Assembly (NCBI RefSeq): GCF_030012215.1
Contig: NZ_JASCXX010000004.1
Span: forward strand, 186,001-250,000
DNA length: 64,000 nucleotides
Direction: 5' to 3'
From: Anaerobaca lacustris
GTDB taxonomy: Bacteria; Planctomycetota; Phycisphaerae; Sedimentisphaerales; Anaerobacaceae
Shown: in pieces, positions 26,740 through 44,543 of the stretch
Position numbering within the stretch: position 1 is the stretch's first letter
Layout of the letters: each line of letters starts with the position of its first letter
Made by a program: the position numbers and the translations under genes
The notes under the pieces: model-generated
The model's database searches: none
What the model saw: the letters and a program-made list of their open reading frames with translations, nothing else
What the model was told of the DNA's origin: nothing

Positions 26740-27021
26740 CTATGCGGTCAGATCTTCCAGCACTCTGTCGAGCGCCAGATCGAGTCGCTCCGTCAGGTCG
26801 TATCTGCCTTCGGTGATCTGCCTTCGAAGAGTGAGGATCTTGTCCCGACGGATTTCCGGCAGGGACGCGATCTTCTTCAGCACCTGGCCAATAGGCGTGT
26901 TGTGAATGTTGTCGAGGATTTGTTCCATGACCATATCCTGGTCTGGGGCCAGATCCGCCTCAAGAGGATTCACCCAATGCTCGTTGCCACGAACGAACCT
27001 GCTGGAATCGAAATCCGGCAT
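26740..27021 (-). CDS. FlgM-like (anti-sigma-28 type) small protein
   Basis: 93-aa soluble protein. The C-terminal half IGQVLKKIASLPEIRRDKIL then LRRQITEGRYDLTERLDLAL resembles the FlgM core, where (I/V)R..K(I/V)..(I/L)R..I..G.Y is conserved, ending in VLEDL. The N-terminal half is acidic and unstructured-looking, as in FlgM. AGGTAGGT precedes ATG 27021. Last gene downstream of the T2SS run, 399 bases after gspM, so it may have its own promoter. No flagellar gene is in the window, so a role as a sigma or other regulator brake for the secretion block is only a suggestion. Confidence 0.5.
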   Translation of the reverse strand: MPDFDSSRFVRGNEHWVNPLEADLAPDQDMVMEQILDNIHNTPIGQVLKKIASLPEIRRDKILTLRRQITEGRYDLTERLDLALDRVLEDLTA

Positions 27022-27420
27022 GTTACCTACCTTGCCAAAAACAAGCCTGAACGAAAGGCCCCGTCCACATCTGACGGAAATTCAAACCACTATATGTTGT
27101 ACGTCTCAGAAAACCAACTCAAACCTCAAATCAACATTGATATCGACATAACCGGTTTGAAAACTTTAGAGAAGTTTTGCCTCGAATCCGCCCATTTGGG
27201 GCATAAATCTCCGTCCAGATGCAGAAAAACAACCGAATTTCAGTACAGGGGGTGGCGATTGCACCTCATGGGACGTCGGTGGGACCGCCAACGACGCCGG
27301 TCCGGGCCGCGACGGGTGTGAATCTGGGAAAGACACTACATGTAGTGATATGCCCTCAAATCCCCTACCGATGGAAGTTATTCCGGTAAGAAGTGGGACT
27401 ATACGGCTGATCGGGCCGAA
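27022..27420. other. AT-richer intergenic gap after gspM
   Basis: Nearly 400 bases without a credible gene; the only ORFs are GC-frame shadows. The half near the FlgM-like gene (27050-27240) is clearly more AT-rich than the surroundings (e.g. CACTATATGTTGTACG) and is the likely promoter for it. A perfect 14-bp palindrome lies at 27334-27347. No intrinsic terminator with a T-tract is visible after gspM. Confidence 0.5.
27334..27347. repeat. 14-bp perfect palindrome CACTACATGTAGTG
   Basis: Self-complementary over all 14 bases with no loop, so more like a dimer-protein binding site than an RNA hairpin. It sits between the end of gspM and the putative promoter of the FlgM-like gene. The half-site TGTAGTG also forms the outer arms of the palindromic element at 59.8 kb. 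Confidence 0.5.
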
Positions 27421-27921
27421 TCAGAAGGAGTACTGGAAGGTCACGTCCATATCCCACAGGTCGGGCATGCCCGCCTTCTTGGTCAGCCGGATTCTCTCGC
27501 AACTGAGGTTCACCCACATCGACTGGATGGTCGAGAGAAACTGCGCCGCCTGGACGATGCTGACGTCGATCAGGTTGACGCGCGCCTGCTGGCTTTCCTT
27601 GCCCCCGGAGGTGACGGTGCTCCCCGTGCTGAGCCTGTAGTTGCTGGAAGGAATCCGACAGAGATTCACCGCGCGATCGACCGCTTCGGCGTAGGCGAAT
27701 CTGCCCAGGCTTTTGGTCTCGTCAACAATCATCAGGCGGTCGGGGTCCTTGTCGAGAATCTCAACAATACTGGCGGTAGCCTCCCCGTACAACTTCTGTT
27801 CGCTGTCCCAAGCCTCTTCTGCCTGGGGCAGATATACCCCCCACACCAGCAGCGGCCAGAGGCCTGCCAGAATCGGGGCCAGGACGTAGTAGAATATCGG
27901 GTTCCTATAGATATCGCGCAT
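27421..27921 (-). CDS. gspM: GspM/PilO-like type II secretion inner-membrane protein
   Basis: 166 aa with one N-terminal membrane helix (YYVLAPILAGLWPLLVWGVY) followed by a coiled-coil-like stretch (PQAEEAWDSEQKLYGEA) and a small alpha/beta periplasmic domain (~85-166), the layout of GspM/PilO. It starts six bases after gspL, its expected partner, and closes the gspC-M series. Sequence identity to GspM cannot be proven by eye; the position is the main support. Confidence 0.66.
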   Translation of the reverse strand: MRDIYRNPIFYYVLAPILAGLWPLLVWGVYLPQAEEAWDSEQKLYGEATASIVEILDKDPDRLMIVDETKSLGRFAYAEAVDRAVNLCRIPSSNYRLSTGSTVTSGGKESQQARVNLIDVSIVQAAQFLSTIQSMWVNLSCERIRLTKKAGMPDLWDMDVTFQYSF

Positions 27922-27927
27922 AACGGG

Positions 27928-29382
27928 TCATCTCCCGGTCGCCTTCTTCGGCTCAACGGTGATTGTGAACGTGTCGCGGCCGCCCTTCTCGACGTAGCTT
28001 TCCTGCTTTCGCGCCAGACCGGCCTTTTCCATCGCGTCGAAGACCCTCAACGTGTTGGGACGCCTTGAGGTGTCCGCACTGATGACGATGTTCGCCCCGC
28101 TGAGGGTGATCGTATCAATGTTCAGATCGGTCTGAGCCGCACAGGCGTTGAGCGCCTGCAGCACCAGGGTCAACTTGGCCTCTATGGTCTCCCGATCGGC
28201 CCCGATGCCGCTCTGTCTCGCCCGGACCGCTCTCACGGCGCTGCCCAGTTTCTGAACGGCCGCTCGCATCGTCGCAGGCAGCTTTTCCTCGCCCGGCATG
28301 ACAGCCAGATAGTCGGGTTCGAGCTTCTCTCTCTGCACAGCCCGGTATCGGTTCACCCGCATCAGGTGCATCTGGGCGTAGACGCCGAGGGCCAGCAGCA
28401 GAACCGTCAGAGAGATGCTGAGAAATCGAACGGCCTTTCGCAAGCGGAGCGTCTTGCCCAGGTACGGCATGTGATCGACGCGGAAGTTCGTCCCTTTGTC
28501 CTTCTCCGACTCTGGAAGCGCCGCCCCATAGGCGATGGCAAAGTCCACCACGTTACGACAATCGGTCAACTCGGCAGGGTCGATCCGGCCCATCGCGGCA
28601 AGATCGCAGTCTTCGACGTCGAACGGAACTCGCGGGCCGAGGTCCGAGGCCCTCAGTCCGTTCAGCGCGTCCAGAACGCACAGTTTGGGGGCGGACTGCC
28701 CCGAGCCGCCCAAGGCAGCGGTCACAAGGGTCTCACGGGTCAGCAGTGCCTTGCGGTCCTGCGACGGCCCCACCGGGAAGGCCCGTGTGAACGAGACCTC
28801 GTCCCCGTTCGGGGTGCCGATCAGGTAGCCGCGAGCGTCCGAAAGCAGAGCGTATACGCGATCGGCCTCCTCGGATCTGCCCCACTGGGCGAGATATCTG
28901 GACAAACACCATGCATCCGGGCTGACCGCAATCGGATCGATCCCGTTGCTCTGTAGCGACAACAGGATATCGGACAAAGTGCTTCGTTGCGCGGTGAACA
29001 CGTCGAGCTGCGCGCCGGTCTGGCCCTTCGAGGCGATCCGAAAGGCCACCGCCATATCGCTGATGTCCGTGGCGAGCGTCTCTTCGGCGTCGAAACGGAC
29101 GGTGGCCGCGATCTTCTTGTAGTCGCTGAACTCACTGTGAACGCTGTGCTGCATGAACAGGGCGCAGTCCAACGCCACCGCCGACTCGGTGAACTTCAGA
29201 CCCCGCTCGGCGCAGGCCTGGGCGATGCGGTCGGCCAGTGTCTGCTGGTCGGGTGGCTCTTCACCATCGATGTCGAGCGAGAAACACCCCAGCAGCCTGG
29301 TCTGCCCCCCTTGCGGGACGAGGCAGACGACGGTCGCCCGGTCTTCTCTCAGATAGATGCCCAAACGCTTTCGTAGCTCCAT
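27928..29382 (-). CDS. gspL: GspL/PilM-PilN-like T2SS assembly protein
   Basis: 484 aa. The N-terminal ~280 residues form an actin/PilM-like cytosolic domain (LGIYLREDRATVVCLVPQGG, FTESAVALDCALFMQHSVHS, VDFAIAYGAALPES). A single membrane helix follows at ~323-342 (FLSISLTVLLLALGVYAQMH), then a coiled coil and a small ferredoxin-like periplasmic domain (IDTITLSGANIVISADTS). This cytosolic-TM-periplasmic layout is GspL, linking GspE to the inner-membrane platform. Lies between gspK and gspM. Confidence 0.8.
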   Translation of the reverse strand: MELRKRLGIYLREDRATVVCLVPQGGQTRLLGCFSLDIDGEEPPDQQTLADRIAQACAERGLKFTESAVALDCALFMQHSVHSEFSDYKKIAATVRFDAEETLATDISDMAVAFRIASKGQTGAQLDVFTAQRSTLSDILLSLQSNGIDPIAVSPDAWCLSRYLAQWGRSEEADRVYALLSDARGYLIGTPNGDEVSFTRAFPVGPSQDRKALLTRETLVTAALGGSGQSAPKLCVLDALNGLRASDLGPRVPFDVEDCDLAAMGRIDPAELTDCRNVVDFAIAYGAALPESEKDKGTNFRVDHMPYLGKTLRLRKAVRFLSISLTVLLLALGVYAQMHLMRVNRYRAVQREKLEPDYLAVMPGEEKLPATMRAAVQKLGSAVRAVRARQSGIGADRETIEAKLTLVLQALNACAAQTDLNIDTITLSGANIVISADTSRRPNTLRVFDAMEKAGLARKQESYVEKGGRDTFTITVEPKKATGR

Positions 29383-29452
29383 GCTCCAAAATCTCCCAGA
29401 GTCAGGACGGCCTTGTGCCTGCCCCGATGGGCGCGCAGGAAGCGGCCCCTGT

Positions 29453-30706
29453 TTAGTCGGATATCACGGCAATCCGCTTTACTCGGCGACCTTCCCTGTT
29501 GACGCCCGCCATAGCCACCTTTCTGGCCACGCCACTGGTCGCAGTGACCCGTACGGTGAAGGTCGTGCTGGTTGTCGTGATGAACGGCTGGCATTTCTCA
29601 ATGGCATTGGCGTATCGGAAAATGTCCTTCTTGGCTTCTTCAATGTCCGAGAACGGCTTCGTGCGCCTGCGCTGAATGATGGCGTCGGCGATCTTCGGTG
29701 CATCGGCGATGCTGCCGAAGGCCAAGGCCGCTTCGAGGATATGCCTCGGCGCCGTATTGATGTTGACCTGCCGGGTCCCCCAGAGCCCGAGGTACTTCAT
29801 CGCGGATTCGTCGCGCGTGGTGCTGACGACGCTCGGTCTTGCGAAAAGCTCGGTATCGATCAAAGAACTGTGAAAGAGCCGGGCGAAGGCGGCGCTCTGC
29901 TGGTCTATCTGCTCGGTCACCGTCACCGTGGTTCGAAGCGTGCGCTGCACGGCCGGCTTGGCACCCGTGGCCGGGGTCCGCGTCACCCTGGCTCTCAGAC
30001 TCGCCGGTGCAGGGGCCGCGACCGACAGGGCTTTGAACTCGACCTGGAACGGCCTGACCTTGGCCACTTCGGCCAGATCGCCCCTGACACCTTTGATCTC
30101 GTCGGGCAGGTAGCCCATCCACTCACAAAACGTCACGAAACCCGTATTGGCTTCGGCCTTGAGCTTCTCATCGGAGATCAGCGCCCAGCCGAGAGGATAC
30201 TTGGCGTTGTCATCCTCGATTTCCACGGTCACTTTGGCCGAACCGATCTCAAACTCGATCGGCTCGGTCACGAGCGGCCAGCGCGGACCGTAGGGGCCCG
30301 GTATCGTCACGGAAGCCGTGGATGCGGGCCTGCGATTCTCCTGCGTCCCGTTCGGATGCGGAGCATCCGCTTCCCTCTCGGCCGCCACCTGGGCGAGCAA
30401 CTCCTGGTACTGCGGCTCGGTCATGACGAAGAGATCGGAGAAGTCCGGCTCGTTCGGGCGACTGATCACCGAAGGTTGGAGATCGACCAGCGAGGCGAGC
30501 GCGTACTTCATGGCGGAGGTGCAGGCGTACTGGGCTTGGGCATAATCGATGATGAACCGGTCCCGATGCCGACGCGCGGCCACCTGGGCGCTGAGGGTGT
30601 ACCCCAACGTCGAAAGGATGACCAGAATCACCAGCGTAATCAGCAGGATCACGCCGTGGCGTTTCCGGAGCCTATCGGACTCTTGTCGGCAGAATCGGTT
30701 GCACAT
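29453..30706 (-). CDS. gspK: GspK-like minor pseudopilin
   Basis: 417 aa. N-terminal RKRHGVILLITLVILVILST is the GspK-type prepilin helix: cleavage after Gly, with the usual +5 Glu replaced, as is characteristic of GspK. A large globular domain follows with the GspK helical part (VNINTAPRHILEAALAFGSI) and FSDIEEAKKDIF, which recall the SAM-like fold. ATG 30706 overlaps gspJ by 35 bases and has GAGG nearby; the longer open frame starting at 30862 would place 52 extra residues before the prepilin leader. Caps the pseudopilus with GspI and GspJ. Confidence 0.85.
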   Translation of the reverse strand: MCNRFCRQESDRLRKRHGVILLITLVILVILSTLGYTLSAQVAARRHRDRFIIDYAQAQYACTSAMKYALASLVDLQPSVISRPNEPDFSDLFVMTEPQYQELLAQVAAEREADAPHPNGTQENRRPASTASVTIPGPYGPRWPLVTEPIEFEIGSAKVTVEIEDDNAKYPLGWALISDEKLKAEANTGFVTFCEWMGYLPDEIKGVRGDLAEVAKVRPFQVEFKALSVAAPAPASLRARVTRTPATGAKPAVQRTLRTTVTVTEQIDQQSAAFARLFHSSLIDTELFARPSVVSTTRDESAMKYLGLWGTRQVNINTAPRHILEAALAFGSIADAPKIADAIIQRRRTKPFSDIEEAKKDIFRYANAIEKCQPFITTTSTTFTVRVTATSGVARKVAMAGVNREGRRVKRIAVISD

Positions 30707-31475
30707 TGCCTCGTCCGTCTCTTGAACCTTGTTCGGCTTGCGTATCCTCGGCGTTCGCCGCACCGGCGTCGGGGCCGGTGGGGCCGAACCGAATGGCCCG
30801 TATCCGGTCGATCGCGATGGTCCGGCTGATCTTCTCCTCATCCAACACGTCCAGCGTCCCACGAACGGTTTCGTACGGCCTGGCGAACGACAGCGTCACC
30901 CGGACCCCGGGCGGCGGGGCTGGCCCCGGCCACCGGTCCACGGCGCCCTCTTCTCTGGGCACTTCGATCCGGAAGTACGTCACGCCCCCACACAGGGGCA
31001 CGAATGTATAGTCGCTCTCCCAGTTTTCTCGTCTGGCGTCGAGGAGCTTGTCCTCGAACCCGACCCCGGTGCGGCTGCGGTAGATCGCCAGTCCCGGGAC
31101 GGCGCCTTGGTGGTCATAGGCGCCACGCCAGACGATCTCTTCGAGCGTCTGTTCCTTGTTCTCGGCATCTTTCAGAATGCGGCGCACGATCAGTTCGGCC
31201 GTGACGAATCCGTTGTCGAATCCGTTTCGGATCTGCACCGTGACATTGTCGTCGGCCCCCAGGGTCCGGTCCAGGTCCTCGGCGATCCGTTGCAGCACCT
31301 CGGTCGCCAGAGCGGGGGTCTCGATCTTGTCGAGGACCGCCTCGGCCGCCCGGTTGGCCTGGCCGTAGACCCCCAGAATGGCGGTCAGCACCATCGCCCC
31401 GATAACCAGCGCGGCCAGCATCTCTCCCAGAGAGTAGCCCCGGCGAAATCCTGGTTGTCTGTTTGCCGTCTTCAT
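30672..31475 (-). CDS. gspJ: GspJ-like minor pseudopilin
   Basis: 267 aa with a type IV prepilin leader: RRGYSLGEMLAALVIGAMVL, cleavage after Gly and Glu at +5, though with Ser-Leu-Gly instead of the usual Thr-Leu-Leu. The following helix and C-terminal beta-rich domain fit GspJ (TEVLQRIAEDLDR, TYFRIEVPREEG). The C-terminal 35 residues are disordered and basic and overlap gspK. Assignment as J rests on size and on its position between I and K. Confidence 0.78.
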   Translation of the reverse strand: MKTANRQPGFRRGYSLGEMLAALVIGAMVLTAILGVYGQANRAAEAVLDKIETPALATEVLQRIAEDLDRTLGADDNVTVQIRNGFDNGFVTAELIVRRILKDAENKEQTLEEIVWRGAYDHQGAVPGLAIYRSRTGVGFEDKLLDARRENWESDYTFVPLCGGVTYFRIEVPREEGAVDRWPGPAPPPGVRVTLSFARPYETVRGTLDVLDEEKISRTIAIDRIRAIRFGPTGPDAGAANAEDTQAEQGSRDGRGNVQPILPTRVR

Positions 31476-31500
31476 AGCACGTTGGCGATCTCAGTGCGGA

Positions 31501-32334
31501 TCAGTTCCGTCGGCTCCTGATCAATTCCATGACGTCCCCGACGTCCATCTTTTCCAGTTCGTCATAGCGTAATCCCGTCGCAGGGTCCACGTCGCTGCCG
31601 GCGGGGGTTTCCGTCCGGTCTCCAGTCTGGTCCCGGGCCTCTTCTCGCGCCAGCGCCAAGGCCGCGATCGACTCGACCTGAAGGTCTTTCTCTTCGGCCG
31701 TCGGGTCCCCCGCGCTGCGAATGTAGATGTCCAGATTGTGTTTGATGAACGCGCCGGCCTCGGTCGTGAGCAGCCCGTTTTCCACCCACGTGCCGATCGT
31801 GTCGGCGTCGACACCCGCATACCGGGCCGCCTCTTCGAGCGTTTCCAGGAGTTGCTCGGCGGCCAGCGCTTCGACGTCCTCGTCTTCGAGGAACTGCTCG
31901 GCCTGCTGATCGGTCAGCGTGGTGATCCAATGGATCAACTCGACCGTCTGGGTCTCGCCGACCGGATCGGTGTAGTCGGCCGAACAGACCGCGCGAAGCC
32001 ACATCTGCCCCGTCACCGGCTCGGAGAACGCCTCCACCACCGTGCGCCAGCCGATGTCGGGATAGCGATCGCTCGTGCCGTATTCCACCTGTTCGCTAAG
32101 CGTCTCGGAAGTCAGGAGCTTCTCCATGTTCTCGCGAGCCAGTTGAAACGCCACCATCTGGAAGGCGGAGTTCGCCGCCGTCGCCATGCAGCGATTGATG
32201 ACGAACAACACGCTTGAACTGGCCAAAGCCAAAATGGCCAGGGACGTGACGACCTCCAGGAGCGTGAACGCGCCCACGCGGCGTTCCGCCGCCCTCTGCA
32301 TCGTCCCTAACGGATTGGCTCGGTTTCCGTACAT
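31501..32334 (-). CDS. gspI: GspI-like minor pseudopilin with long acidic extension
   Basis: Prepilin leader RRVGAFTLLEVVTSLAILAL (cleavage after Gly, Glu at +5), followed by QMVAFQLARENMEKLLTSET, typical of GspI. At 277 aa it is about twice the normal GspI length. The second half (~140-277) is very acidic and helical (QFLEDEDVEALAAEQLLETL, ARYAGVDADTIGTWVENGLL) with no relation to pseudopilins that I can see. ATG 32334 leaves a 20-residue leader; ATG 32301 would shorten it. The extra domain would sit at the pseudopilus tip and might contact substrate or secretin, which is inference. Confidence 0.75.
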   Translation of the reverse strand: MYGNRANPLGTMQRAAERRVGAFTLLEVVTSLAILALASSSVLFVINRCMATAANSAFQMVAFQLARENMEKLLTSETLSEQVEYGTSDRYPDIGWRTVVEAFSEPVTGQMWLRAVCSADYTDPVGETQTVELIHWITTLTDQQAEQFLEDEDVEALAAEQLLETLEEAARYAGVDADTIGTWVENGLLTTEAGAFIKHNLDIYIRSAGDPTAEEKDLQVESIAALALAREEARDQTGDRTETPAGSDVDPATGLRYDELEKMDVGDVMELIRSRRN

Positions 32335-32367
32335 ATCTTAATGGTGAGGCTCCAAACAACCCGGCGA

Positions 32368-32964
32368 TCAAAACGACGCCACCTGTTCCTTCGTCCTGGG
32401 ACGCATCAGTTCCGGGTTGCCCTGGAGCAGTTGCACGATCGGGGTCAGCCTTCCGACCGCGACCGTATGGGCCTGTTCGCTCTCATCGCGAAAGACGATC
32501 TTGCCTCCGTATTGCCAGCCGGAGTGCCCGGCGCGGAACTTGGCGCGCCCTTCGTTGGCAAACGTGCCGTCGTCGAACTCAACATAGGCGACGCGACAGC
32601 CGTCTCCGAAATATCCGTCGACCACGATCTCTTCGTCCAGCACCTCGACCAGATTCGACGAGCTGATCCGTCGAAGCAGATACGTCTGCTCGGTGACGTC
32701 CACGATCACCTCGTAGCGCCGCCCCGTCTCGGCGGCGGCCGAGGCCGCCATCTGCATGGCCGAGACGAAGCCCTGCACCTGCGCCTTGAACGTGCTTCGT
32801 CGCAGGATGCCGAAAAGATTCGCCTGGGCGACCATCACGAACAGCGCCAGCATGGAGAGCACGACGATCAGCTCGACCAGCGTGAAGGCGCCGGTCCGCG
32901 ACCGGGTGGCCGGGCCGGTTTTCGCGTGCGTCCGGTTAGCGGTCGGTGCTGAGCAGGTCGGCAT
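32368..32964 (-). CDS. gspH: GspH-like pseudopilin
   Basis: 198 aa. Leader RSRTGAFTLVELIVVLSMLA with Gly/Phe cleavage and Glu +5, then a GspH-type beta-sandwich (FKAQVQGFVSAMQMAASAAA, YEVIVDVTEQTYLLRR, GWQYGGKIVFRDESE). A long basic leader (~24 residues) precedes the cleavage site. ATG 32964 overlaps gspG by 29 bases, with GAGGG upstream. Minor pseudopilin that joins the GspG shaft to the I-J-K tip. Confidence 0.8.
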   Translation of the reverse strand: MPTCSAPTANRTHAKTGPATRSRTGAFTLVELIVVLSMLALFVMVAQANLFGILRRSTFKAQVQGFVSAMQMAASAAAETGRRYEVIVDVTEQTYLLRRISSSNLVEVLDEEIVVDGYFGDGCRVAYVEFDDGTFANEGRAKFRAGHSGWQYGGKIVFRDESEQAHTVAVGRLTPIVQLLQGNPELMRPRTKEQVASF

Positions 32965-33376
32965 TGTAGCCCTCGCCGCCTTCCTGGCCGTCGGCACCGA
33001 GACTCTTGATGACGAACGGCTTGCCGCTTTCAGGATACAGTTCGTAGATAAACTCATTGTTCCAACCGTCGGGCGGGACATCCGTGGTGTCCAGATAGCC
33101 GCCGGGCTGCCAGTTCGTCACATCCGACGGCTGCTCGACCAGGGCGTACAATCCCTCGTCCTCCGTGGGGTACCGGTTGGTGTCCATGTAGAACTGATTG
33201 ACGGCGCTGGCCAACTGCCGCAGACTGGCCTTGGTGGTCGTGACCTTTGCCTTCTCGGTCTGCCCGACGAAATTCTTGACCACAACGCCCGCCAGCAGTC
33301 CGAGAATGATCAGGACGGCCATGAGCTCGACCATCGTAAAACCGGTTCTGACTTGTCGCCTTCTGCTCTCCTTCAT
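32936..33376 (-). CDS. gspG: Major pseudopilin GspG
   Basis: 146 aa, the normal size. RRQVRTGFTMVELMAVLIIL is a classic prepilin signal with Gly/Phe cleavage and Glu +5. The GspG body follows: LRQLASAVNQFYMDTNRYPT, EDEGLYALVEQP, YLDTTDVPPDGWNNEFIYEL, IKSLGADGQEGGEGYNADL. The C-terminal Gly/Asp-rich Ca-binding loop (LGADGQEGGEG) is conserved. ATG 33376 has AGGAG upstream. It forms the pseudopilus shaft after processing by a prepilin peptidase not found in this window. Confidence 0.93.
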   Translation of the reverse strand: MKESRRRQVRTGFTMVELMAVLIILGLLAGVVVKNFVGQTEKAKVTTTKASLRQLASAVNQFYMDTNRYPTEDEGLYALVEQPSDVTNWQPGGYLDTTDVPPDGWNNEFIYELYPESGKPFVIKSLGADGQEGGEGYNADLLSTDR

Positions 33377-33399
33377 AATCCATCGACTCCTATACGCTC

Positions 33400-34617: not shown

Positions 34618-34694
34618 AGTACAATCTGATTAACAAAGCACTCACAATCCGTCACGCGTCGATCTGCACTCGACGCCGGACCGGCCAACCGATC

Positions 34695-36401: not shown

Positions 36402-36434
36402 AGACTTCACTGCCTGCGTATCCGGTCTTCCTGA

Positions 36435-39400
36435 CTACTGCGCTTCGAGGACTCGTTCCGGCTGGACCGGCTTCGGCTTGAAGCCGGGCCAACTCTGGTG
36501 GCTCTGGAATTCCTTCTCATGCTGTTCGAACGCCAGTCGGTTCCGCTCGCTAAGCCGTTCCAGCTCTTCCATCGAGTGCCCCGTGGCCATCCCCGGCCGG
36601 ATCACTTCCGCTTTGACGAAGATGTACAGCTTGCTCTGCCGGTCCGAGTTGTTGACACCCCGGAACAGGCCGCCGACCAGCGGGATGTCTCCCAGGATCG
36701 GAACCTTTCGGCCTCCCTTGGTCTGATTGAGCTTGATCAAGCCACCGAGGATGATCGTACTGCCATCCGGTACGGTTACGGCGGTGTTGAGTTCGCTGGC
36801 CGTCGTATTCGGTGGCTTCTTCGGGTCCTCGCTCGTGAAATCGGACCGAACCAGGCCGATGTCCAGGCGGAGAAGGTTCCCTTCGCTGATGTGCGGGGTG
36901 ATGTTCAGGGTGATACCCGCCTCATAAGGCGTATAATCGACCGCCGTCTGAATGAGCGTGGTGTCGGTGCCGGCGCTGCCCGAACTGACGGGAATCGACG
37001 AGGTCTTCTCGACATACGTCGTGTCGGTCGTCTTGATCGTGCCCGGCTCGTTGTCGTTGACCAGGATCTTTGGCTTGGCCAGAACGCGCCCGTAGTTCTT
37101 GGACTGCATCGCCGTCAGCAGGGCATTGATGTGCTTGTCGCCGTAGAACGCCCTGAAGTTGTCGCCGTCCCACTGCATGTCGGCAAACTGACTGCGGTCG
37201 CTCTGCAGCAGCTTCTCAAGAATCGTGCCGCTCGTGACCCCCTCGGCGATCCCCCCCGTCAGACCCGATGTCGCCGTCAGGTCGGGAATGCTCTGAATCA
37301 GGTTGAGATCGTAGTTGAACGCGTCGGTCTTGCTGATCTCCACCAGCGTCACGTCGATCAGGACCTGCGGCCGGCGCTTGTCCAACTGCCGGACCAGGTT
37401 CGAAATCCATTCCTGGTTCTTCTTGCTGGCGTAGACGATCAGCGAATAGGTGTTGGGATCGGGAACGATGGTGATCTCCTGCTCGCGACGTTTCGTGACG
37501 CTCGTCTGGATCTTGCCTTCCGGGTCCTGATACTCCGTCGTCTCCTGGATGAGACTCTGGAAGACCTGGGCCAGGTGGCCGGGCGACGAGTTTTCCAGCG
37601 GGTAGATTCTGTACGGGATCTCGTCTTCGCACGTCTCGCTGTCCACGAAGCTGATGATGGTCTCGATCCGGGCGTGCTGTTCGGCCGTGGCGTTGACGAG
37701 CAACGAGTTGGTGGATTCGACCACCACCACCTGGGGTTCACCCACCGGCCCCCGTTCATCGATCTCCGGCATAGGCGTCCCCGTCGCGGCGCTGACCGCC
37801 GCGGCCGCCCGGGCCGCAGCCGCTGCCTGCTGCTGCGCGGCTGTTTGCTGCGCATTCGTTCTTGGCTGGCCGGTGAGGCGACCGGTGGCGCCCGTCTCGG
37901 GCACCGTGGTGATGATCCCCAACTCTCGGAACTTCCCGCGGACCTCTTCTGCATCGACGTGGCGAATGCGGTACAGCTTCATTGATCGCAGGTCCTGCTG
38001 CGCGACGTCCAGCGAATCGATCAGGTCCTCGACCAGATCCAACTGATTCTGAACGCCAATCATCAGAATGCGATTGGTTCGCTCGTCGGCGTCCAGATAC
38101 ACGCCGGGCTTGCTCACCGGCTCGGCGGCTGCGCCCGGTCGCCGCGCCGCCGTTGCGGCGGCGGCGGCCTGCTGCTGTTGCTGAACCCGCAGACGTGCCA
38201 GGCGCTGGCGATAGGCCACCTCGGATTCTCCGGGCTGCTTCGCGGGGGTCGCCGCACCCTCGTCGACGCCCACCGTCACGGAAACGCTTTCGAGCTGCTC
38301 GGCCAGCGCCTTGACCTTCTCGGCCAGACTCATCGCCATGGTGTACCGAAGCTGGCGGAATCGGAATCTCCGCGGCTCGCCCGGCCGATCCACCATGTTT
38401 AGCAACTGCTCGATCCGCGCCATCCGATGGGCATACGCTGTGACGATCATCGTCCCGCTCTCCGGAATCGGCGTCACGCCGATGGAGAGCCTCATGCTGT
38501 CCAGCAGATTCTGCGCACTGACCGTGTCGATGTACTGAAGCTCGAAGACGCGCGTGACAACGACGTCGCCGGCCTCCACCGCTCTGCCGCCCGGGCCCAC
38601 AAGACCGGGGTCGACGTCGAGCGCCTGGGCGACGGGGACGATCGTAACGATATTGCCTCTGTGTCGCGTCATGACAAGGTTCTGGAACTTCAGCACGGAC
38701 TCCAACAGAAGGTACAGGTCCTTGACCTTCATCGACCCGCGAAGGTCGCCATTTAACTTGAGCGTCACCTCCCCCGTGATCTGGGTGGGGTCGTAGATGT
38801 AGTCGAGGTTCATGTATTTGCCGACAAGGTCCAATAACTGGATCACCGGAAGCTTCTCTGGAAGGTTCAGATCGACGATGCGGTCGTCGTCAATGCCCGC
38901 TGTCGGCGTGTAGTCACCCGCGGGGGAGATGGACTGCGATGTCCTGTCCGACGTCCGGTTTCCTGCGGTGCGAGCCATGTGATCGGTCTGGGTCGGCACG
39001 ATCTGCCCGGGCTGCAGCGTGGTCGGCTCCTCGGGCCGGTCCGCCGCGTCGCCGGCCGAACTTGGAAGCGGAAGGGAGGTCTCGTTGGAATCCGCCTGGG
39101 CAATCGCCAGATCCAGGGCCAGAGGGTTGCGGTCGGCCTCCAGCAGGCGAGCGGGCAACACACCGAGATTCGACGTTCCCAGACGATCCGCGTTCAATTC
39201 AGCCGCCCAAAGCCGTGTCTCAAGAAGCTTCCTCTGCATATCGTCCGGCAGGGTGATCTTCCCGGAATCGGCCGGGTTCTCACGCGGCCCCGACCACAAC
39301 GACGGTTCGGTTCCAGGACTGTCTGCAGCCGAACGGGGCGTAACGGCCGGAACCGTCTGCGGCGCATTGGGGGCGACCTGGCTGCTTCCTTGTCGGAACG

Positions 39401-39947
39401 AGGCCCTTCGCTGTTCCAGGACCTGCGGTCCCAGTTCGACGGCCAACGCGATCTCCTGGAGCTGGAAAATCGGGGCAACGGCCCAGATCGAACCGTTGTG
39501 CAGATCGATGATGGCCTTGGCCTTGCCCGTCTCACGGGGAGGATGGGCGAAGCTGCCAATACAGAGATTACCGACGGCGGTCGCGATGCGTTCGTTGGAC
39601 GGAAGACTCGCAGCCAGGGATGCCGGACCGATCTTTCGGACCTCGAAGACTTCGGGCGCATCGACAAGACCCAGCAAGGCCACCGCCTTCTGAACGTCCT
39701 CCGGGCTGGCCGTAACCAGCAGGGCATTGGTCCCCGGCAACGGGGAGGCGGTTGCGAGGTTGAGCTTCGAGAGGAACTCCCTGCCTCGCTCGGGAGAGAT
39801 ATGGTCCAGGGAAACGAACCTGGCCCCACCGGATGGAACGCCCTGGCCGAAGGCCAACAGGGGTCGGTTGCACAGCATGCAGAGGCCCAGGAAAACTGCG
39901 AGCAGTACTTCGTGGCGCCTCTTATTCAGAAAATGCCGTTCCGTCAT
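36435..39947 (-). CDS. gspD: Type II secretion secretin GspD, enlarged
   Basis: Outer-membrane channel subunit, 1170 aa against ~650-700 for typical GspD. Order: signal peptide (EVLLAVFLGLCMLCNRPLLA); an extra N-domain (~45-95, SLDHISPERGREFLSKLNLA); a low-complexity linker (~160-345); an N0-like domain (~350-440, NLPEKLPVIQLLDLVGKYMN); several N1-type repeats interrupted by Gln/Ala-rich tracts (QQQQQAAAAATAARR and TAAQQQAAAAARAAAA); and the secretin core with AKPKILVNDNEPGTI, DYTPYEAGITLNITPHIS and VPILGDIPLVGGLFRG. No clear lipobox. It should form the T2SS exit pore. It is 33 bases before gspE but 476 bases after gspC. Confidence 0.93.
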   Translation of the reverse strand: MTERHFLNKRRHEVLLAVFLGLCMLCNRPLLAFGQGVPSGGARFVSLDHISPERGREFLSKLNLATASPLPGTNALLVTASPEDVQKAVALLGLVDAPEVFEVRKIGPASLAASLPSNERIATAVGNLCIGSFAHPPRETGKAKAIIDLHNGSIWAVAPIFQLQEIALAVELGPQVLEQRRASFRQGSSQVAPNAPQTVPAVTPRSAADSPGTEPSLWSGPRENPADSGKITLPDDMQRKLLETRLWAAELNADRLGTSNLGVLPARLLEADRNPLALDLAIAQADSNETSLPLPSSAGDAADRPEEPTTLQPGQIVPTQTDHMARTAGNRTSDRTSQSISPAGDYTPTAGIDDDRIVDLNLPEKLPVIQLLDLVGKYMNLDYIYDPTQITGEVTLKLNGDLRGSMKVKDLYLLLESVLKFQNLVMTRHRGNIVTIVPVAQALDVDPGLVGPGGRAVEAGDVVVTRVFELQYIDTVSAQNLLDSMRLSIGVTPIPESGTMIVTAYAHRMARIEQLLNMVDRPGEPRRFRFRQLRYTMAMSLAEKVKALAEQLESVSVTVGVDEGAATPAKQPGESEVAYRQRLARLRVQQQQQAAAAATAARRPGAAAEPVSKPGVYLDADERTNRILMIGVQNQLDLVEDLIDSLDVAQQDLRSMKLYRIRHVDAEEVRGKFRELGIITTVPETGATGRLTGQPRTNAQQTAAQQQAAAAARAAAAVSAATGTPMPEIDERGPVGEPQVVVVESTNSLLVNATAEQHARIETIISFVDSETCEDEIPYRIYPLENSSPGHLAQVFQSLIQETTEYQDPEGKIQTSVTKRREQEITIVPDPNTYSLIVYASKKNQEWISNLVRQLDKRRPQVLIDVTLVEISKTDAFNYDLNLIQSIPDLTATSGLTGGIAEGVTSGTILEKLLQSDRSQFADMQWDGDNFRAFYGDKHINALLTAMQSKNYGRVLAKPKILVNDNEPGTIKTTDTTYVEKTSSIPVSSGSAGTDTTLIQTAVDYTPYEAGITLNITPHISEGNLLRLDIGLVRSDFTSEDPKKPPNTTASELNTAVTVPDGSTIILGGLIKLNQTKGGRKVPILGDIPLVGGLFRGVNNSDRQSKLYIFVKAEVIRPGMATGHSMEELERLSERNRLAFEQHEKEFQSHQSWPGFKPKPVQPERVLEAQ

Positions 39948-40423
39948 CGCTCATTACCCCGCATCAAAATCACCCTTCTCCATGCTACTTCAAAGACAAC
40001 CGAGTCTTCTACGTCAAGAACACCGACGCCGACGCCATCGGAACGGATGATCCGGTCCAACCAGCCGACGAGCGACTGTGGCTGTACGACGAACCACGGC
40101 TCTCTTGCTCGTTGAGCCGGCTCGGACATACCCAATCACACCTATTCAGACATCGCAGAGGGCCGAAAGTTCCCGCTTCGCCCACAAAAAACCATGCTCC
40201 CAGCACTGCAACAGGCGGTGAACCATCCGTCGGAGACTCCGCGTCGGTCTCGTGCGCAGACCGACGGCGCGCGACGCGACAATCCGATCCACGATATCCG
40301 ATAATCACGCGACGGACGAGGCGCCGAAACGAGAGGATCGAGGCCACATCGATGGGAGCGGCTCAGGGCGATGGAATGACGGTGGGATGGGACGTGGAAG
40401 CCCGTTGGGAAGGACCGAGAAAA
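39948..40423. other. Unusual intergenic gap between gspC and gspD
   Basis: About 476 bases inside an otherwise tightly packed operon. Reading frames here lack family similarity and start signals, so I call no gene. A 9-bp hairpin CGTCGGTCT / AGACCGACG with a 7-base loop lies at 40242-40266, without a T-tract on the minus strand. A -35-like TTGACG on the minus strand (40017-40012) has no good -10 partner. The gap may carry a gspD promoter or a transcript-processing site. Confidence 0.45.
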
Positions 40424-41410
40424 CTATTTGCGAATGACGCGAGGAATATTCAGTTTCCGGCGCACCTCGCTGAGCTTATCGGCACTGGAAGGGTCCATGG
40501 ATTCGTTCAGTTCTCTTCCCAGGTCCTCGACCTTCTCGGCCTCTTCCGGGCTGACGCGCGACGATTTGTATTCGGCCATCAGCTTCTTGATCGCGGCATC
40601 GCGGTCTTCGGGGGCCAGATTGGGATCCAGCGTTGCCGGGGCGTTCTTCTGGAGTTCCCGAAGTTGCTCGATGAAGCCTGCCATCTCTTCCTGCTCGCGC
40701 TCGCTCACCTCACCGTCGCCCTGAACAGCCGACGTCTCAGGTGCCCACGGACGCGCCACGGGCTGTCCGGTGATCCGACCGCCCGCCGGCCGGACCGAGG
40801 TCGGGCGGAGCTCAGCCTGCGGGACGGAAGGACCGGTCGCTTCAAGGAGGCTGGCTGTAGCCGGGACGGGCTCGGTAGCCATCTCGACGTCGGCCTGACC
40901 GTCCCAACAGACGATCGATCCGCTCCGGATCTCCTTGATGAGCAGATGGCCGATCTCGTCGCCCTTTCGGACCCACCGATAGGTCTTGTCCGGGAGACGA
41001 ATGTACGCGAAACTGTTGTCTGCGCTGACCGTCGTTCCGACAAGGTCGAACTGGGCCGAAGACGATACCGGTTTGGCCACAGGCCGTGTCGGCCGAGAGC
41101 CCGTCGCAGGCGGTTTCGCGGCGGCGGTAACCGGCGCCGGAGGCGGGTCGAGGATGTTCTTGAAGGATTCGGCCTCTCGTACCAGTGGGGCGACGGCGCC
41201 CTGCCCGCTCTGCGGGCTGTCGCCGTGTGCTGCTTTCCACTCGTCCACAACGCTGGGTTCATTCAGGATGCGCTCGACCTCCGGATCGTTCCGTACGGCG
41301 AAACCGGCCAGCAGATCCGGGACCAGAGACTTCGGCCCTGCCACCAGGACCAGCACCAGGCCGGCCAGGAGGATGACCACTACCGACGTTATGCGCAATG
41401 TACTTACCAT
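40424..41410 (-). CDS. gspC: GspC-like T2SS inner-membrane protein
   Basis: 328 aa with one N-terminal membrane helix (ITSVVVILLAGLVLVLVAGP), a Pro/Ala linker, and a GspC homology region (~115-165: FDLVGTTVSADNSFAYIRLP, KTYRWVRKGDEIGHLLIKEI) that in GspC contacts the secretin N-domains. There is no PDZ domain; instead the C-terminal ~100 residues are charged and helical (EREQEEMAGFIEQLRELQKN, PEEAEKVEDLGRELNESM). AAGGTGG precedes ATG 41410. The position just upstream of gspD supports the call. It follows the tetraheme protein gene by 41 bases. Confidence 0.78.
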   Translation of the reverse strand: MVSTLRITSVVVILLAGLVLVLVAGPKSLVPDLLAGFAVRNDPEVERILNEPSVVDEWKAAHGDSPQSGQGAVAPLVREAESFKNILDPPPAPVTAAAKPPATGSRPTRPVAKPVSSSAQFDLVGTTVSADNSFAYIRLPDKTYRWVRKGDEIGHLLIKEIRSGSIVCWDGQADVEMATEPVPATASLLEATGPSVPQAELRPTSVRPAGGRITGQPVARPWAPETSAVQGDGEVSEREQEEMAGFIEQLRELQKNAPATLDPNLAPEDRDAAIKKLMAEYKSSRVSPEEAEKVEDLGRELNESMDPSSADKLSEVRRKLNIPRVIRK

Positions 41411-41451
41411 AGGCCACCTTACTTTCTTAGTGTTTTGACACCCCAGGTGAT

Positions 41452-42822
41452 CTACGGTTCCCTCCAATGCTTGATTTTTTCGAGATACTCGGCCTCATGG
41501 CCGGCGTATCCACTGCTGTGCTCGGGCGTGTGGCAGTCCAGGCAGGACATCTTCGGCTCGACCGTCGGCGTCCAGCCGGAACTGTGAACGTGCGCGGAGC
41601 CCGGGCCGTGGCAGTTCTCGCACCCTACATCCTTCAGGTGCGGCGTCTTCTGTTCCGTGATGAATCCGCTTTCGCGATCCATGCCAATGACGTGGCAAAT
41701 CACACACTCCGGATCGTGATCCGACCCGACCTCCACGAGCGTGGCAAAGGCGCTGGCGTGGGCCTTCGTGCTCCACGCGGCGTATTCATAGTCGTGGCAC
41801 CGCTGGCACGCCTGGGAACCCACATATTGCAGGCCGTCAGGCAGGGGGATGCGGGGGTACTTCTCGAGCAGACCGCTCTGCCGGACCAGTTCCTGATACT
41901 GCCCGTAGAGCCTGACCAGGGCCCCGTCGTCGGGCAGCGCTTCTTCGACGGGGATCCTTTCGAGAAACAGGGCCGGTTCCACGCCGGGACCCGGAAAACG
42001 GACCCTGAGACGGCTGATATACCGCCCAAAGCGCCCGACCGTATAGACCAGCGGTCGCTCGCCCGGCTCGCTGAGCACCTGGGGCTCGTCAGAATCCGAG
42101 GGCAGAATCAGACAGTCAGCGTCGGAGGACTGGGCCCAGATCCGGCGAGATTCGGCATCGCCGTTCCGCAGGACCAGGATATTGACGGCGTGCTCGTCGG
42201 TCGGACGGCCAAAAAGCTCGGCTACCGACTCCGGCCGGTCGATCCGAGCATCCACAGAGGCGAAACGAGCGACAATTTCACGCCTCTGGCCTTCAAACCG
42301 CTTGACGAAACCCGCGGGCGAATCGTCCCGATCCGGCCCCCAAGGGGCGCCGATGACGGCAAAGGAACCCTCTCGAGGGGCCGTCAGGCCGAGGGTTTGG
42401 GCGATCTGAACGTCCTGCTCTGTCAGATGCACCAGGTCGTAGCCAAGCAGGCGAAAGGCCTCGAGAAGGATCCCAAACTTGATCAGGTCCTGCTCGCCGT
42501 CGCCGGCGACGAGTGTCCCGGTGTCAACCACCGCGCGCCTCGCCGACGGCACGCGGCCGAAGATGGCCGGTCGCTTCGACAACCCACCCAGTTGGCCGCC
42601 GGAACAGCCGCAGGGCTTCAGGGCGCCAAGCTCGGTGCCCGTGAAAAAAATCGAAACCTCCCCCGGATCGGCGACCTGTCGGGAAACTGGTGGCCGGACC
42701 GATTCTTCCGGACAGGCGAAGCCGCCGATCAGGACACAAAGACTTACCAGAACAATATTTACAGCCAAGCGGCACCCAGTCAAGGCATTCGACCGGCCGG
42801 GGGATACGTCAGGCGTCGTCAC
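41452..42822 (-). CDS. Metallophosphatase-like / tetraheme c-type cytochrome protein
   Basis: 456-aa exported protein with two parts. An N-terminal hydrophobic segment (LAVNIVLVSLCVLIGG) leads to a ~270-residue domain that starts VSIFFTGTELGALKPCGCSG and continues GGLSKRPAIFGRV, resembling UshA/5'-nucleotidase-like folds that carry a CGC...GGL motif; the metallophosphatase metal ligands are not obvious. The C-terminal ~130 residues hold four haem motifs, CQRCH, CVICH, CENCH and CLDCH, as in cytochrome c554-like proteins. GTG 42822 has GAGGAA ten bases upstream; GTG 42855 or TTG 42840 are alternatives. Probably periplasmic electron transfer; partner unknown. In tandem with the DUF1573 gene and gspC. 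Confidence 0.8.
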   Translation of the reverse strand: MTTPDVSPGRSNALTGCRLAVNIVLVSLCVLIGGFACPEESVRPPVSRQVADPGEVSIFFTGTELGALKPCGCSGGQLGGLSKRPAIFGRVPSARRAVVDTGTLVAGDGEQDLIKFGILLEAFRLLGYDLVHLTEQDVQIAQTLGLTAPREGSFAVIGAPWGPDRDDSPAGFVKRFEGQRREIVARFASVDARIDRPESVAELFGRPTDEHAVNILVLRNGDAESRRIWAQSSDADCLILPSDSDEPQVLSEPGERPLVYTVGRFGRYISRLRVRFPGPGVEPALFLERIPVEEALPDDGALVRLYGQYQELVRQSGLLEKYPRIPLPDGLQYVGSQACQRCHDYEYAAWSTKAHASAFATLVEVGSDHDPECVICHVIGMDRESGFITEQKTPHLKDVGCENCHGPGSAHVHSSGWTPTVEPKMSCLDCHTPEHSSGYAGHEAEYLEKIKHWREP

Positions 42823-42836
42823 AGCAGTCGGTTTCC

Positions 42837-43988
42837 TCAATAGAAGCCACGGCACTGAATGGACAACACCTCGCCGTCCTTGATCTTCGCCTCAACGAAA
42901 TCGGAAAGGACCGCCCGCTCGCCCTCGGCCGGGGGGGGAATGATCCGCAGCTTCAGTTGGTAGCGGTTCTGGACCTTCGTCTTGGCTAAGAGCGTCACAA
43001 TACCCTTCTGCGAGGAGACGCTTTCGATCTCGAAATCATCCTGGTAGTTGCTCAGGATCCAGATTTCCCGCTCTACGGGCACCCCCGCCTTGAGATTAAA
43101 CAGCATGATCGTCTGCGGGCTGACCGTGAATTCGGGCAGGACATCATATAAGATGCGAACGTTGCGGCACTCCGGATGCGTCAGGTCGATGCTGATCTGG
43201 CCGCGAAGACTGCCCTTGAGCTTCTCGATGTCCGCGATCGGCTTGAGGACGAACTCGGTCGCTTCGACCCTCGGATCGAAGTCGGCCTTGATCGCCGTGG
43301 CGGTGGCCCTGAATCCCGTGATCGCAAAGGGTTTTCCGTCGAGGCTGGTCAGCGTGATATCGCCGGCCCCGGCGTTGTCCTGCCTGAGAAACAACTTCAG
43401 GGTCGATGGTTCATAGTGCACGCGCGGGGCGATGGTGGCCGTGATGGTCAGGCTCACGACGCGCTGGGCAGGATCGTTGCATTCGATGTAGAGGTTTCGT
43501 CTCATCGACCCGGGTTGCGAGCCGGCGCGGTAGCTGATCTCCAGGACGCCGCTTTCGCCCGGGGCGTATTCCTGGCCGGGCTTAACCCCTTTGGTCACCA
43601 CGCCGCAGCAGCTCCTGACCTGCGTGACCCTTAGCGGGGCTGTACCCGTGTTGGCAAACCGGAACTCGGCCTTCTGGGAGGTATCCGGGCCGATTTCGCC
43701 AAAATCGTGCTCGACCGATTCCATCGCGATTCGGGGCGTGGCGACGACGTGAAAGTCTGAGATCTTCACCGCATCCGGCGGGTCGGTCTTCTCGCTGGCG
43801 GCCGCAGCCGACCGCTCGCTGGGAACCACGCGGGTGATCTTAACCTCCGTCTCTGCCTGAGCTTGTGGCCTTGCCGATTCCTGCCGACAGCCGAACTGAC
43901 AGGCCAGCAGCATCGCGCAGACCGTTGCGAGCCACAGACAAGGTCGGAAACGCGTCTTTTCGCTATGGGCAGCCATGTTCTCGGTCAT
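42837..43988 (-). CDS. DUF1573-domain lipoprotein
   Basis: 383 aa, exported; LATVCAMLLAC may be a lipobox (a second Cys follows four residues later). The DUF1573 Ig-like domain is seen as VEHDFGEIGPDTSQKAEFRF then NTGTAPLRVTQVRSCCGVVT. The usual SCGCT of the family is SCCGVV here. A second Ig-like region with the same topology follows (~190-380), ending in a beta-strand rich tail (VLSIQCRGFY). GGGAG precedes ATG 43988. First gene of the putative 17-kb minus-strand block, divergent from rpmE. Function of DUF1573 is unknown; it often occurs next to redox proteins in planctomycetes. Confidence 0.8.
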   Translation of the reverse strand: MTENMAAHSEKTRFRPCLWLATVCAMLLACQFGCRQESARPQAQAETEVKITRVVPSERSAAAASEKTDPPDAVKISDFHVVATPRIAMESVEHDFGEIGPDTSQKAEFRFANTGTAPLRVTQVRSCCGVVTKGVKPGQEYAPGESGVLEISYRAGSQPGSMRRNLYIECNDPAQRVVSLTITATIAPRVHYEPSTLKLFLRQDNAGAGDITLTSLDGKPFAITGFRATATAIKADFDPRVEATEFVLKPIADIEKLKGSLRGQISIDLTHPECRNVRILYDVLPEFTVSPQTIMLFNLKAGVPVEREIWILSNYQDDFEIESVSSQKGIVTLLAKTKVQNRYQLKLRIIPPPAEGERAVLSDFVEAKIKDGEVLSIQCRGFY

Positions 43989-44174: not shown

Positions 44175-44408
44175 ATGAAAAAAGACATACATCCACAATA
44201 TCACAAGGTCGTCGTTCACTGCGGGTGTGGGGCCACATTCGAAACCCACAGCACGTCGAAGGAGATCCACGCGGAAATCTGCTCGATGTGCCATCCGTTC
44301 TACACCGGCAAGCAGAAGTTCGTCGATACCGCCGGCCGGATCGAGCGATTCCAGAAGAAGTACGGAACATCGTACATCAAGAAGACCGGAAAAGAACCGC
44401 AGCCTTAG
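44175..44408 (+). CDS. rpmE: 50S ribosomal protein L31
   Basis: 77-aa ribosomal protein with the family start [16 protein letters not shown] and the zinc-binding Cys set CGC...[20 protein letters not shown], so this is the Cys-containing (C+) form. [10 protein letters not shown] ends the conserved core. GGAG lies ahead of ATG. The gene precedes prfA, a common bacterial order, and is divergent from the DUF1573 gene. Confidence 0.96.
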
Positions 44409-44543
44409 TCCGGCATGCGATCGGTGTACGAGCTCCCGCCATGCGAGACCGGGGCGGGGCTTCCTGCCACAATGGGGCGGCGCACGCACGCGCGGGCACC
44501 TTGGCCGCCTGAGATCAAGCTCACCTGCTGACTCGTGCAACCT

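Follow-up and report, generated by a model that had tools for sequence, protein, structure and literature searches.

A DUF1573 lipoprotein gene, often with a UshA-like tetraheme cytochrome gene, usually heads type II secretion genes in Sedimentisphaerales

The subject of this report is a minus-strand gene block at positions 43988-26740 of a 64,000-nucleotide stretch of the Anaerobaca lacustris genome (contig NZ_JASCXX010000004.1, positions 186,001 to 250,000; the whole stretch is called the window below). Genes for a DUF1573 lipoprotein and a UshA-like four-heme cytochrome are followed there by gspC-D-E-F-G-H-I-J-K-L-M, the genes of a type II secretion system (T2SS), and by a FlgM-like gene. 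Judged from its sequence, the block reads as a T2SS operon that begins with a conserved, putative redox module; it belongs to the order Sedimentisphaerales in the class Phycisphaerae, a little-studied group of planctomycetes. The linkage of DUF1573, with or without the cytochrome, to gspC/gspD in this order is near certain, and of the two head genes it is DUF1573 that constantly partners gspC/gspD. The original prediction had suspected a real link between redox genes and secretion genes and had named chance adjacency as the simple alternative. Chance is rejected, because the gene order is kept across the order (41/54 judgeable genomes, and 8/8 in a second draw); the link itself belongs to DUF1573 rather than to the cytochrome.

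Linkage within Sedimentisphaerales

Gene order was compared in 61 genomes, the source genome and 60 relatives, of which 37 belong to family f1 and 24 to six other families of the order. A gspE gene is present in 61/61 at E 1e-100 (an orthologue by hidden Markov model score in 59), DUF1573 in 59/61 and the cytochrome in 34/61. Seven of the 61 (G006, G007, G013, G014, G026, G057, and G059) are not judgeable owing to contig ends, lack of a gspE orthologue or, for G006, a cytochrome gene split by rearrangement. The other 54 can be grouped into three categories. Group one, in which DUF1573 and the cytochrome are both linked to gspC/gspD, includes 29 genomes (26 of f1, G038 of f3, and G053 and G060 of f5); the contigs of G021 and G028 stop short of DUF1573. 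Group two, linked without the cytochrome, includes 12 genomes: G008, G020 (with a MauE gene between), G025, G034, G041, G042, G046, G050, G052, G054, G056, and G058. In G052 and G056 gspD directly follows DUF1573. Group three, not linked, includes the 13 genomes G015, G030, G037, G039, G040, G043, G044, G045, G047, G048, G049, G051, and G055.

On rechecking, G040 carries DUF1573, a MauE gene and, 366 bp further on, a 156-aa frame that is cut by the contig end. This frame is similar to gspC-like genes found in the same family (29-33% over 73-86 aa, with E values of about 4e-6 to 4e-5 from a tiny set). The contig bearing gspD in G040 begins with a gspC-like tail. G040 is thus likely to be linked as well, giving 42/54.

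Among the 29 cytochrome-bearing genomes of f1 and f3, the next gene is gspC in 26 and gspD in G010, while the cytochrome gene is split in G006 and lies at a contig edge in G014. In G060 a gspC-like gene stands between cytochrome and gspD; the gspC-like genes of G053 and G060 score low against the gspC profile of the order, at 10 and 22 bits, respectively. Within a search distance of 600 bp, overlaps included and with a few loci double-counted, 32 DUF1573-cytochrome pairs are separated by no more than 121 bp and 27 cytochrome-gspC pairs by no more than 107 bp. In four genomes (G008, G012, G023, and G041) gspC stays with DUF1573 although gspD is elsewhere.

A second draw of genomes came from a class-wide DUF1573 search (86/160 genomes at E 1e-10). 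DUF1573 heads gspC in all eight further DUF1573-bearing members of the order: without the cytochrome in G402, G411, and G416, with it in G421, G431 (twice), G442, and G453, and with a MauE gene between in G475. As this draw was selected on the presence of DUF1573, 8/8 tests position and not presence; at least one more f1 genome there (G459) is without DUF1573. The two runs of G431 (L351 and L352), each reading DUF1573-cytochrome-gspC-gspD-gspE, lie on different contigs.

Genes of the locus

The features of the block, all on the minus strand, are as follows.

42837..43988, minus: DUF1573 lipoprotein; PF07610 65.5 bits (over the cut-off of 26.1), start ATG 43988
41452..42855, minus: UshA-like CGC domain plus four-heme c554-type domain, predicted lipoprotein; Cytochrome_C554 58.8 bits (cut-off 20.8)
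40424..41410, minus: gspC; position before gspD and orthologue, no Pfam match of its own
36435..39947, minus: gspD secretin, 1170 aa; PF00263 Secretin 131.8 bits, Secretin_N in 5 stretches, TIGR02517 295 bits (under the cut-off of 351)
34695..36410, minus: gspE ATPase; PF00437 455 bits, MshEN 43 bits
33400..34617, minus: gspF platform protein; PF00482 170 bits
32936..33403, minus: gspG major pseudopilin; PF08334 T2SSG 106 bits, TIGR01710 127.6 (over the cut-off of 88.9)
32368..33081, minus: gspH minor pseudopilin, whose listed open reading frame (ORF) probably starts too far upstream; N_methyl 18.7 bits (residues 61-85, under cut-off), orthologues in relatives
31501..32334, minus: gspI minor pseudopilin; N_methyl 18.6 bits (under cut-off), orthologues
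30672..31475, minus: gspJ minor pseudopilin; N_methyl 16.3 bits (under cut-off), orthologues
29453..30862, minus: gspK minor pseudopilin; T2SSK 20.6 bits (under the cut-off of 24.2), NF037980 GspK 45.6 (under the cut-off of 130), orthologues
27928..29382, minus: gspL; T2SSL PF05134 30.2 bits (over the cut-off of 25.5)
27421..27921, minus: gspM; no Pfam match, position and orthologue after gspL in 20/20 newly fetched downstream regions
27022..27420, minus: conserved non-coding gap; dyad 27334-27347, TAAAGTTT-N13-GTCGATA 27141-27168, second dyad 27088-27101, 13-row alignment
26740..27021, minus: FlgM-like anti-sigma gene, conserved neighbour, probably with its own transcript; PF04316 25.7 bits (cut-off 25)

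The complete gspC-to-gspM series was thus correctly predicted, with every named gene found in the expected order, and the 41-bp gap between the cytochrome gene and gspC (ATG 41410) is upheld. The 14-bp gap claimed between DUF1573 and the cytochrome gene is replaced by a probable overlap of 19 bp, because the relatives G001 and G005 carry ATG at the position of the window's GTG 42855. The protein first described as tetraheme does have four CxxCH sites, with a UshA-like domain fused to its heme-binding part.

GspD, GspE, GspF, and GspG pass their Pfam cut-offs for T2SS membership with strong support, while the support from models is moderate for GspL and weak for GspK. Of the two NCBIfam models, TIGR01710 is passed by GspG and TIGR02517 missed by GspD. 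GspC and GspL are the features that separate T2SS from type IV pili, and both are present: GspL exceeds the PF05134 cut-off, and GspC is recognised by similarity to a relative (L253) that scores 28.3 bits with PF11356 T2SSC (cut-off 27) and is 31% identical to the window protein over 261 aligned columns. A profile search of the PDB with the window GspC gave no meaningful match. The operon resembles known T2SS (Gsp/Out) operons in its C-to-M order, its secretin, its MshEN-type ATPase with a four-cysteine motif, and its T2SSG major pseudopilin. It differs in having DUF1573 and a tetraheme cytochrome of UshA-like type as its first genes, in the length of its secretin, and in the high divergence of C, H, I, J, and M.

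The four cysteines of GspE are kept in 59/59 rows. In sets of 17 to 54 rows, conserved cysteines are found in the minor pseudopilins (GspJ in 19/19 rows, three sites in GspK, two in GspI, and two in GspH), and none is found in GspC, GspD, or GspG.

Further secretion-related genes were seen in the source genome and in family f5. The source genome (5.73 Mb, 117 contigs) contains 16 matches to the secretin domain, of which four fall in a single 1641-aa frame on contig C2, and nine gspE-like matches at E < 1e-100. At the f5 loci L095, L096, and L103 the secretins are 1172-1910 aa long and are preceded by gspC-like proteins with repeated segments; at L095 a 1259-aa beta-helix-like protein with a dockerin-like end, named by inspection and not by a scan, lies between the cytochrome and the gspC-like gene.

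The DUF1573 lipoprotein

The DUF1573 product is predicted to be a lipoprotein rod with three Ig-like domains and a CGC-type motif. It has a signal helix, a lipobox-like cysteine (38/44 rows), a long disordered linker and, in an AF2 model (pLDDT 81.7), three beta-sandwich domains. C164 is present in 45/45 rows and a second cysteine at +2 in 27/45 (SCGC); the window protein has CCG in place of SCGC. A DUF1573 alignment (A2) was built from 27 of 35 ORFs and 7 more, and one row was excluded for an internal stop. The source genome has a single DUF1573 gene and a single such cytochrome gene. At two loci of family f2 (L247 and L249) DUF1573 lies away from the T2SS and is followed by a gene for an MltA-type lytic transglycosylase.

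Both DUF1573 (with UGC) and UshA-like proteins (with CxU) are listed as selenoprotein families in the available text of three sources (PMC9312934, PMC13188914, PMC2398784). The window protein shares with the listed DUF1573/OS_HP2 selenoprotein the PF07610 domain, and has CGC/CCG where the latter has UGC. It scores 40.3 bits with NF041425 OS_HP2, under the cut-off of 100, and the form found in the window and the order differs in having cysteine, two more beta-sandwich domains and linkage to gspC.

The UshA-like four-heme cytochrome

The N-terminal domain of the cytochrome resembles 5'-nucleotidases (AlphaFold model with pLDDT 80, Foldseek E about 1e-12, profile match to 5h7w at E 1e-18). In an alignment with nucleotidases the motifs GNHE, GHSG, and GGHTN, presumably their metal ligands, are not kept. 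The C-terminal part, with its four CxxCH sites, belongs to PF13435 cytochrome c554 and matches 1bvb at E 2e-21 (alignment A3), which we take to be cytochrome c554 of Nitrosomonas; the window protein differs from it in being fused to a nucleotidase-like domain, in being a predicted lipoprotein, and in lying in a T2SS operon.

A conserved GGL.RR segment is directly preceded by a PCGC motif. The aligned rows keep this motif and all eight heme cysteines in 27/27, with extra residues between the cysteines of the first heme site in 5/27. In a wider set, which includes some repeats, the two CGC cysteines are kept in 62/62 and 61/62 and the eight heme cysteines in 62/62. The lipobox-like cysteine is present in 37/44 rows. 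The alignment (A1) holds 27 of 36 ORFs; those left out are fragments or N-bearing rows (L041, L046, and L048), near-copies (L056 and L057), two rows of the order (L066 and L070, needlessly), and two divergent paralogues (L051 and L053, which keep PCGC and not QLGG).

The protein scores 155.5 bits with NF041198, the UshA-like (seleno)protein family, under the cut-off of 275. It shares with that family PCGC where the family name has PCGU, and its model matches 5'-nucleotidases; it differs in scoring below the cut-off, in having cysteine and not selenocysteine, and in lacking the three nucleotidase motifs. No selenocysteine was found at this site: the window has PCGC, and of 151 PCG[CU] matches in the collected loci only one has TGA, and its frame is interrupted by stops.

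Some further cytochrome loci are unusual. The divergent paralogues, L051 in G003 and L053 in G023, are second UshA-like multiheme genes that lie away from gspC and carry PCGC followed by GMAG instead of QLGG. In G006 the cytochrome gene is split (L046 and L048), so that the C-terminal half adjoins gspC and the N-terminal half adjoins DUF1573 at a distance of about 68 kb and in the opposite direction; this resembles an inversion or a misassembly with its breakpoint inside the cytochrome gene.

A MauE-thioredoxin protein in the cytochrome slot

In G020 and G475, both of genus g16, a membrane protein of the MauE family, bearing SCGCFG as well as a thioredoxin-like CxxC, is encoded exactly between DUF1573 and gspC. 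The same DUF1573-MauE-gspC order is probably present in G040, as read from its cut contig; G040 is the only one of six f5 genomes without the cytochrome and the only one with MauE. In G017 a MauE-thioredoxin gene adjoins DUF1573. The slot in genus g16 is thus filled by a member of the MauE family (PF07291), a membrane protein that differs in what reads as a thioredoxin-like C-terminal CxxC part.

Among the 61 genomes the occurrence of this protein and of the cytochrome is nearly reciprocal. The long MauE-thioredoxin form is found in 24/27 cytochrome-less against 2/34 cytochrome-bearing genomes, and MauE at the Pfam cut-off in 23/27 against 5/34; Fisher tests on these counts give 1e-11 and 3e-8, with weak phylogenetic independence. 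Of the 26 genomes in the long set, 22 were read in sequence, and G048, G052 (only 229 aa), G054, and G059 were placed by frame length. A gspE tree, which excludes the 2/61 genomes without a gspE orthologue, offers four well-supported independent contrasts, in which MauE goes opposite to the cytochrome in about 2.6, the same way in 0.1, and shows no difference in 1.2. Taken as an exchange, the pattern is suggestive. Loss of cytochrome c assembly as the cause of the swap explains only part of it, PF01578 being missing in 8/27 cytochrome-less and 2/34 cytochrome-bearing genomes.

The FlgM-like gene and the flanks

The FlgM-like gene is next after gspM in 12/21 regions, farther off in 2, and not found in 7, so that its place at the end of the run, as predicted, holds as gene order. 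Its membership of the same transcript is not supported. The gene begins about 400 bp past gspM behind conserved promoter-like DNA; it is probably a separate transcription unit beside the operon with its own putative promoter element. Its score with the TIGR03824 equivalog is 18.5 (cut-off 40.75), and a FliA over cut-off is present in the genome.

The gap between gspM and the FlgM-like gene is nearly constant in length (384-484 bp in f1/f3 rows). Two dyads of the CACTACATGTAGTG type flank an invariant TAAAGTTT-N13-GTCGATA, and the arrangement is conserved in 13 rows. This promoter-like pair occurs once in the genome. No Rfam match was found in the gap, and scans for promoter and terminator consensus sequences gave weak matches only. 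A sigma-28 element is a tentative reading, the sigma-28 consensus having a spacing of 11 against 13 here. Reading the dyads as marks of a regulon was dropped, as the pattern is not above a reversed control (6 vs 10 strand hits). Only two other one-mismatch dyad sites occur in the genome, both on contig C61, and the ORFs around one of them look transposase-like by eye.

Upstream and divergent are what we take to be a gene for an L31-like ribosomal protein (44175-44408) and prfA (44535-45632), both named from their sequence.

Proposed role and alternatives

The CxC motif is typical of thiol redox sites, and all three partners (DUF1573, the cytochrome and MauE) share it, with the window's own DUF1573 having CCG. 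T2SS exports folded proteins, as far as the available text of PMC7949064 describes it. This, together with the shared CxC, the two families listed as selenoproteins and the conserved cysteines of the minor pseudopilins, makes a thiol/heme redox module in the periplasm, working for the T2SS at its pseudopilus tip or for its cargo, the best reading, with a probability of roughly 0.45. The CGC motif, near the position expected for the nucleotidase site, would be wired to the four c-type hemes. It would exchange electrons with thiols or disulfides of the envelope, its clients being the minor pseudopilin tip or secreted enzymes that fold before export, with DUF1573 as a partner. The four hemes would carry electrons to or from another carrier, and where the cytochrome is missing the MauE-thioredoxin membrane protein might take the same job. 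Co-transcription of the module with the gsp genes is something we infer. A bolder version, in which a nucleotidase fold has become a thiol redox site (a selenol in relatives), coupled through the four hemes to the electron pool of the envelope and tethered to the T2SS by DUF1573, so that redox state gates or powers the export of folded enzymes as a quality control and the MauE-thioredoxin protein is interchangeable with it in the operon slot, is speculative and on present evidence improbable.

Observations from within the order and from beyond it weigh against a redox module serving the T2SS. The link of DUF1573 to T2SS is not obligatory, since a T2SS without adjoining DUF1573 occurs in 12 or 13 of the 54 judgeable genomes, including 5/6 of family f2 (the sixth not judgeable) and 3/5 of f4. 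The cytochrome of f5 is apart from gspD in 2/5 cytochrome-bearing genomes (G045 and G049), and in G053 one unrelated gene as well as the gspC-like gene separates it from gspD. GspC is ruled out as a thiol client by its lack of conserved cysteines. MauE genes mostly lie elsewhere in the genome and not beside the T2SS, and a sign test of reciprocity on the four tree contrasts is not significant. No biochemical data for the DUF1573 or UshA-like families were found in the available text of the literature consulted.

Outside the order the pair stands without adjoining gsp genes, so that its basic job is not T2SS-specific. In a phylum sample the cytochrome is found in 151/294 genomes at E 1e-20, and in 20 of these loci that were read DUF1573 adjoins the cytochrome in 16 and gspC in none; a gspD-like ORF lies about 6 kb from the cytochrome in one, L154. 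A set of 80 named loci gives the same division. Fourteen have at least 39% identity and continue with gspC (13) or gspD (1), seven of them on contigs already included among the 61 genomes. The other 66, among them Brocadiales, Pirellulales, Armatimonadota, and L180 (labelled Sedimentisphaerales; its contig ends 3.1 kb after the cytochrome), have gspC or gspD directly after the cytochrome in 0 and a detectable DUF1573 in 30/66. At L217, one of the 66, the opposite strand carries gspF, gspE, and a gspD-like ORF at a distance of about 5 kb. In other orders of the class DUF1573 is beside gspC at 0/11 loci from 11 genomes, one DUF1573 gene being taken from the several in each genome. The situation that the original prediction named as refuting the link, relatives that mostly keep the pair apart from gspC, is therefore not what is seen within the order, and is what is seen outside it (0/20 and 0/66). 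These zero counts indicate that the pair is wider than its T2SS position, with coupling seen in this order only.

No constant partner of the pair was seen among the neighbours scanned outside the order, which include a nucleotidyltransferase and glycogen synthase (L146 and L150), an O-antigen ligase (L155-L157), RecA and AlaRS (L155), and others. Separately, at L145, L146, L147, and L149 proteins of about 820 aa and 341 aa with two CxxCH each are encoded close upstream of the pair; the copies of L146, the only ones scanned, match HZS_alpha and diheme peroxidase/cytochrome c models.

Three other explanations of the linkage can be set against a redox module serving the T2SS. The cytochrome, and perhaps DUF1573, could be cargo that the T2SS delivers to the cell surface, where it would act as an outlet for electrons to the exterior. 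Export by T2SS of the lipid-anchored decaheme MtrC of Shewanella is documented in the available text of PMC12175506, the lipobox-like cysteine is conserved in both proteins, and the Phycisphaerae genomic survey (PMC11266412), in its available text, calls Sedimentisphaerales strictly fermentative, so that an external electron sink would make sense. A MauE membrane protein in the slot in G020 and G475 should, however, not be T2SS cargo, DUF1573 alone precedes gspC/gspD in 11 genomes of the first sample, and the pair exists across the phylum without adjoining T2SS; a cargo role is thus unlikely. Similarly doubtful is a role of DUF1573 in T2SS assembly or tethering, as a pilotin-like lipoprotein or a scaffold for GspC/GspD, with the cytochrome a passenger of an old pair. 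Its predicted rod of three beta-sandwich domains would suit such a part, as would its place before gspC/gspD without the cytochrome in 12/61 genomes and 4/8 of the second draw (one each with MauE between) and its travelling with gspC apart from gspD in four genomes. The invariant C164 and the listed selenocysteine relatives point instead to redox work, and a T2SS lacking DUF1573 at this place in 12 or 13 of the 54 genomes is against an assembly function.

Lower still in probability stands a frozen gene order, in which the genes were joined once in the ancestor of the order and kept as a block without functional coupling. Other neighbours are in fact retained: the FlgM-like gene follows gspM in over half of the regions, with a divergent GHMP kinase gene beyond, and divergent prfA lies upstream in seven relatives (G001-G005, G029, and G036). 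Yet the flanks vary while the DUF1573-(cytochrome)-gspC core persists, gspC accompanies DUF1573 even in genomes whose remaining operon genes are located elsewhere, MauE-thioredoxin replaces the cytochrome in its slot, and the gaps stay short even where identity in DUF1573 and the cytochrome has fallen to about a quarter.

Relation to known systems and significance

The original prediction held that a secretion machine linked to a cytochrome would be a novelty. This is too broad in view of MtrC, a multiheme lipoprotein likewise connected to T2SS in the available text (PMC12175506); MtrC is cargo there. As far as the literature was searched, it is the conserved coupling of the genes that looks new. 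The literature searched (T2SS with Planctomycetes, c-type cytochromes, disulfide, and DsbA/GspD) yielded no T2SS operon that encodes a redox partner. The available text of the literature on DUF1573 makes no connection to secretion, and that of the Phycisphaerae survey (PMC11266412) does not use the word.

Should the link be functional, it would provide a first testable job for two uncharacterised, widespread envelope families, DUF1573 and the UshA-like CGC/CGU proteins, and it would raise the question of why bacteria called strictly fermentative keep a heme protein in a secretion operon. Degradation of complex polysaccharides is predicted for these organisms in the available text of the same survey (PMC11266412), so that an enzyme-exporting machine matters for carbon turnover in anoxic sediment. 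A DUF1573 gene, often with the cytochrome gene, usually heading the T2SS genes, and a MauE-thioredoxin alternative in the same slot suggest, on the strength of gene order and motifs, that protein export may be tied to envelope redox chemistry in Sedimentisphaerales.

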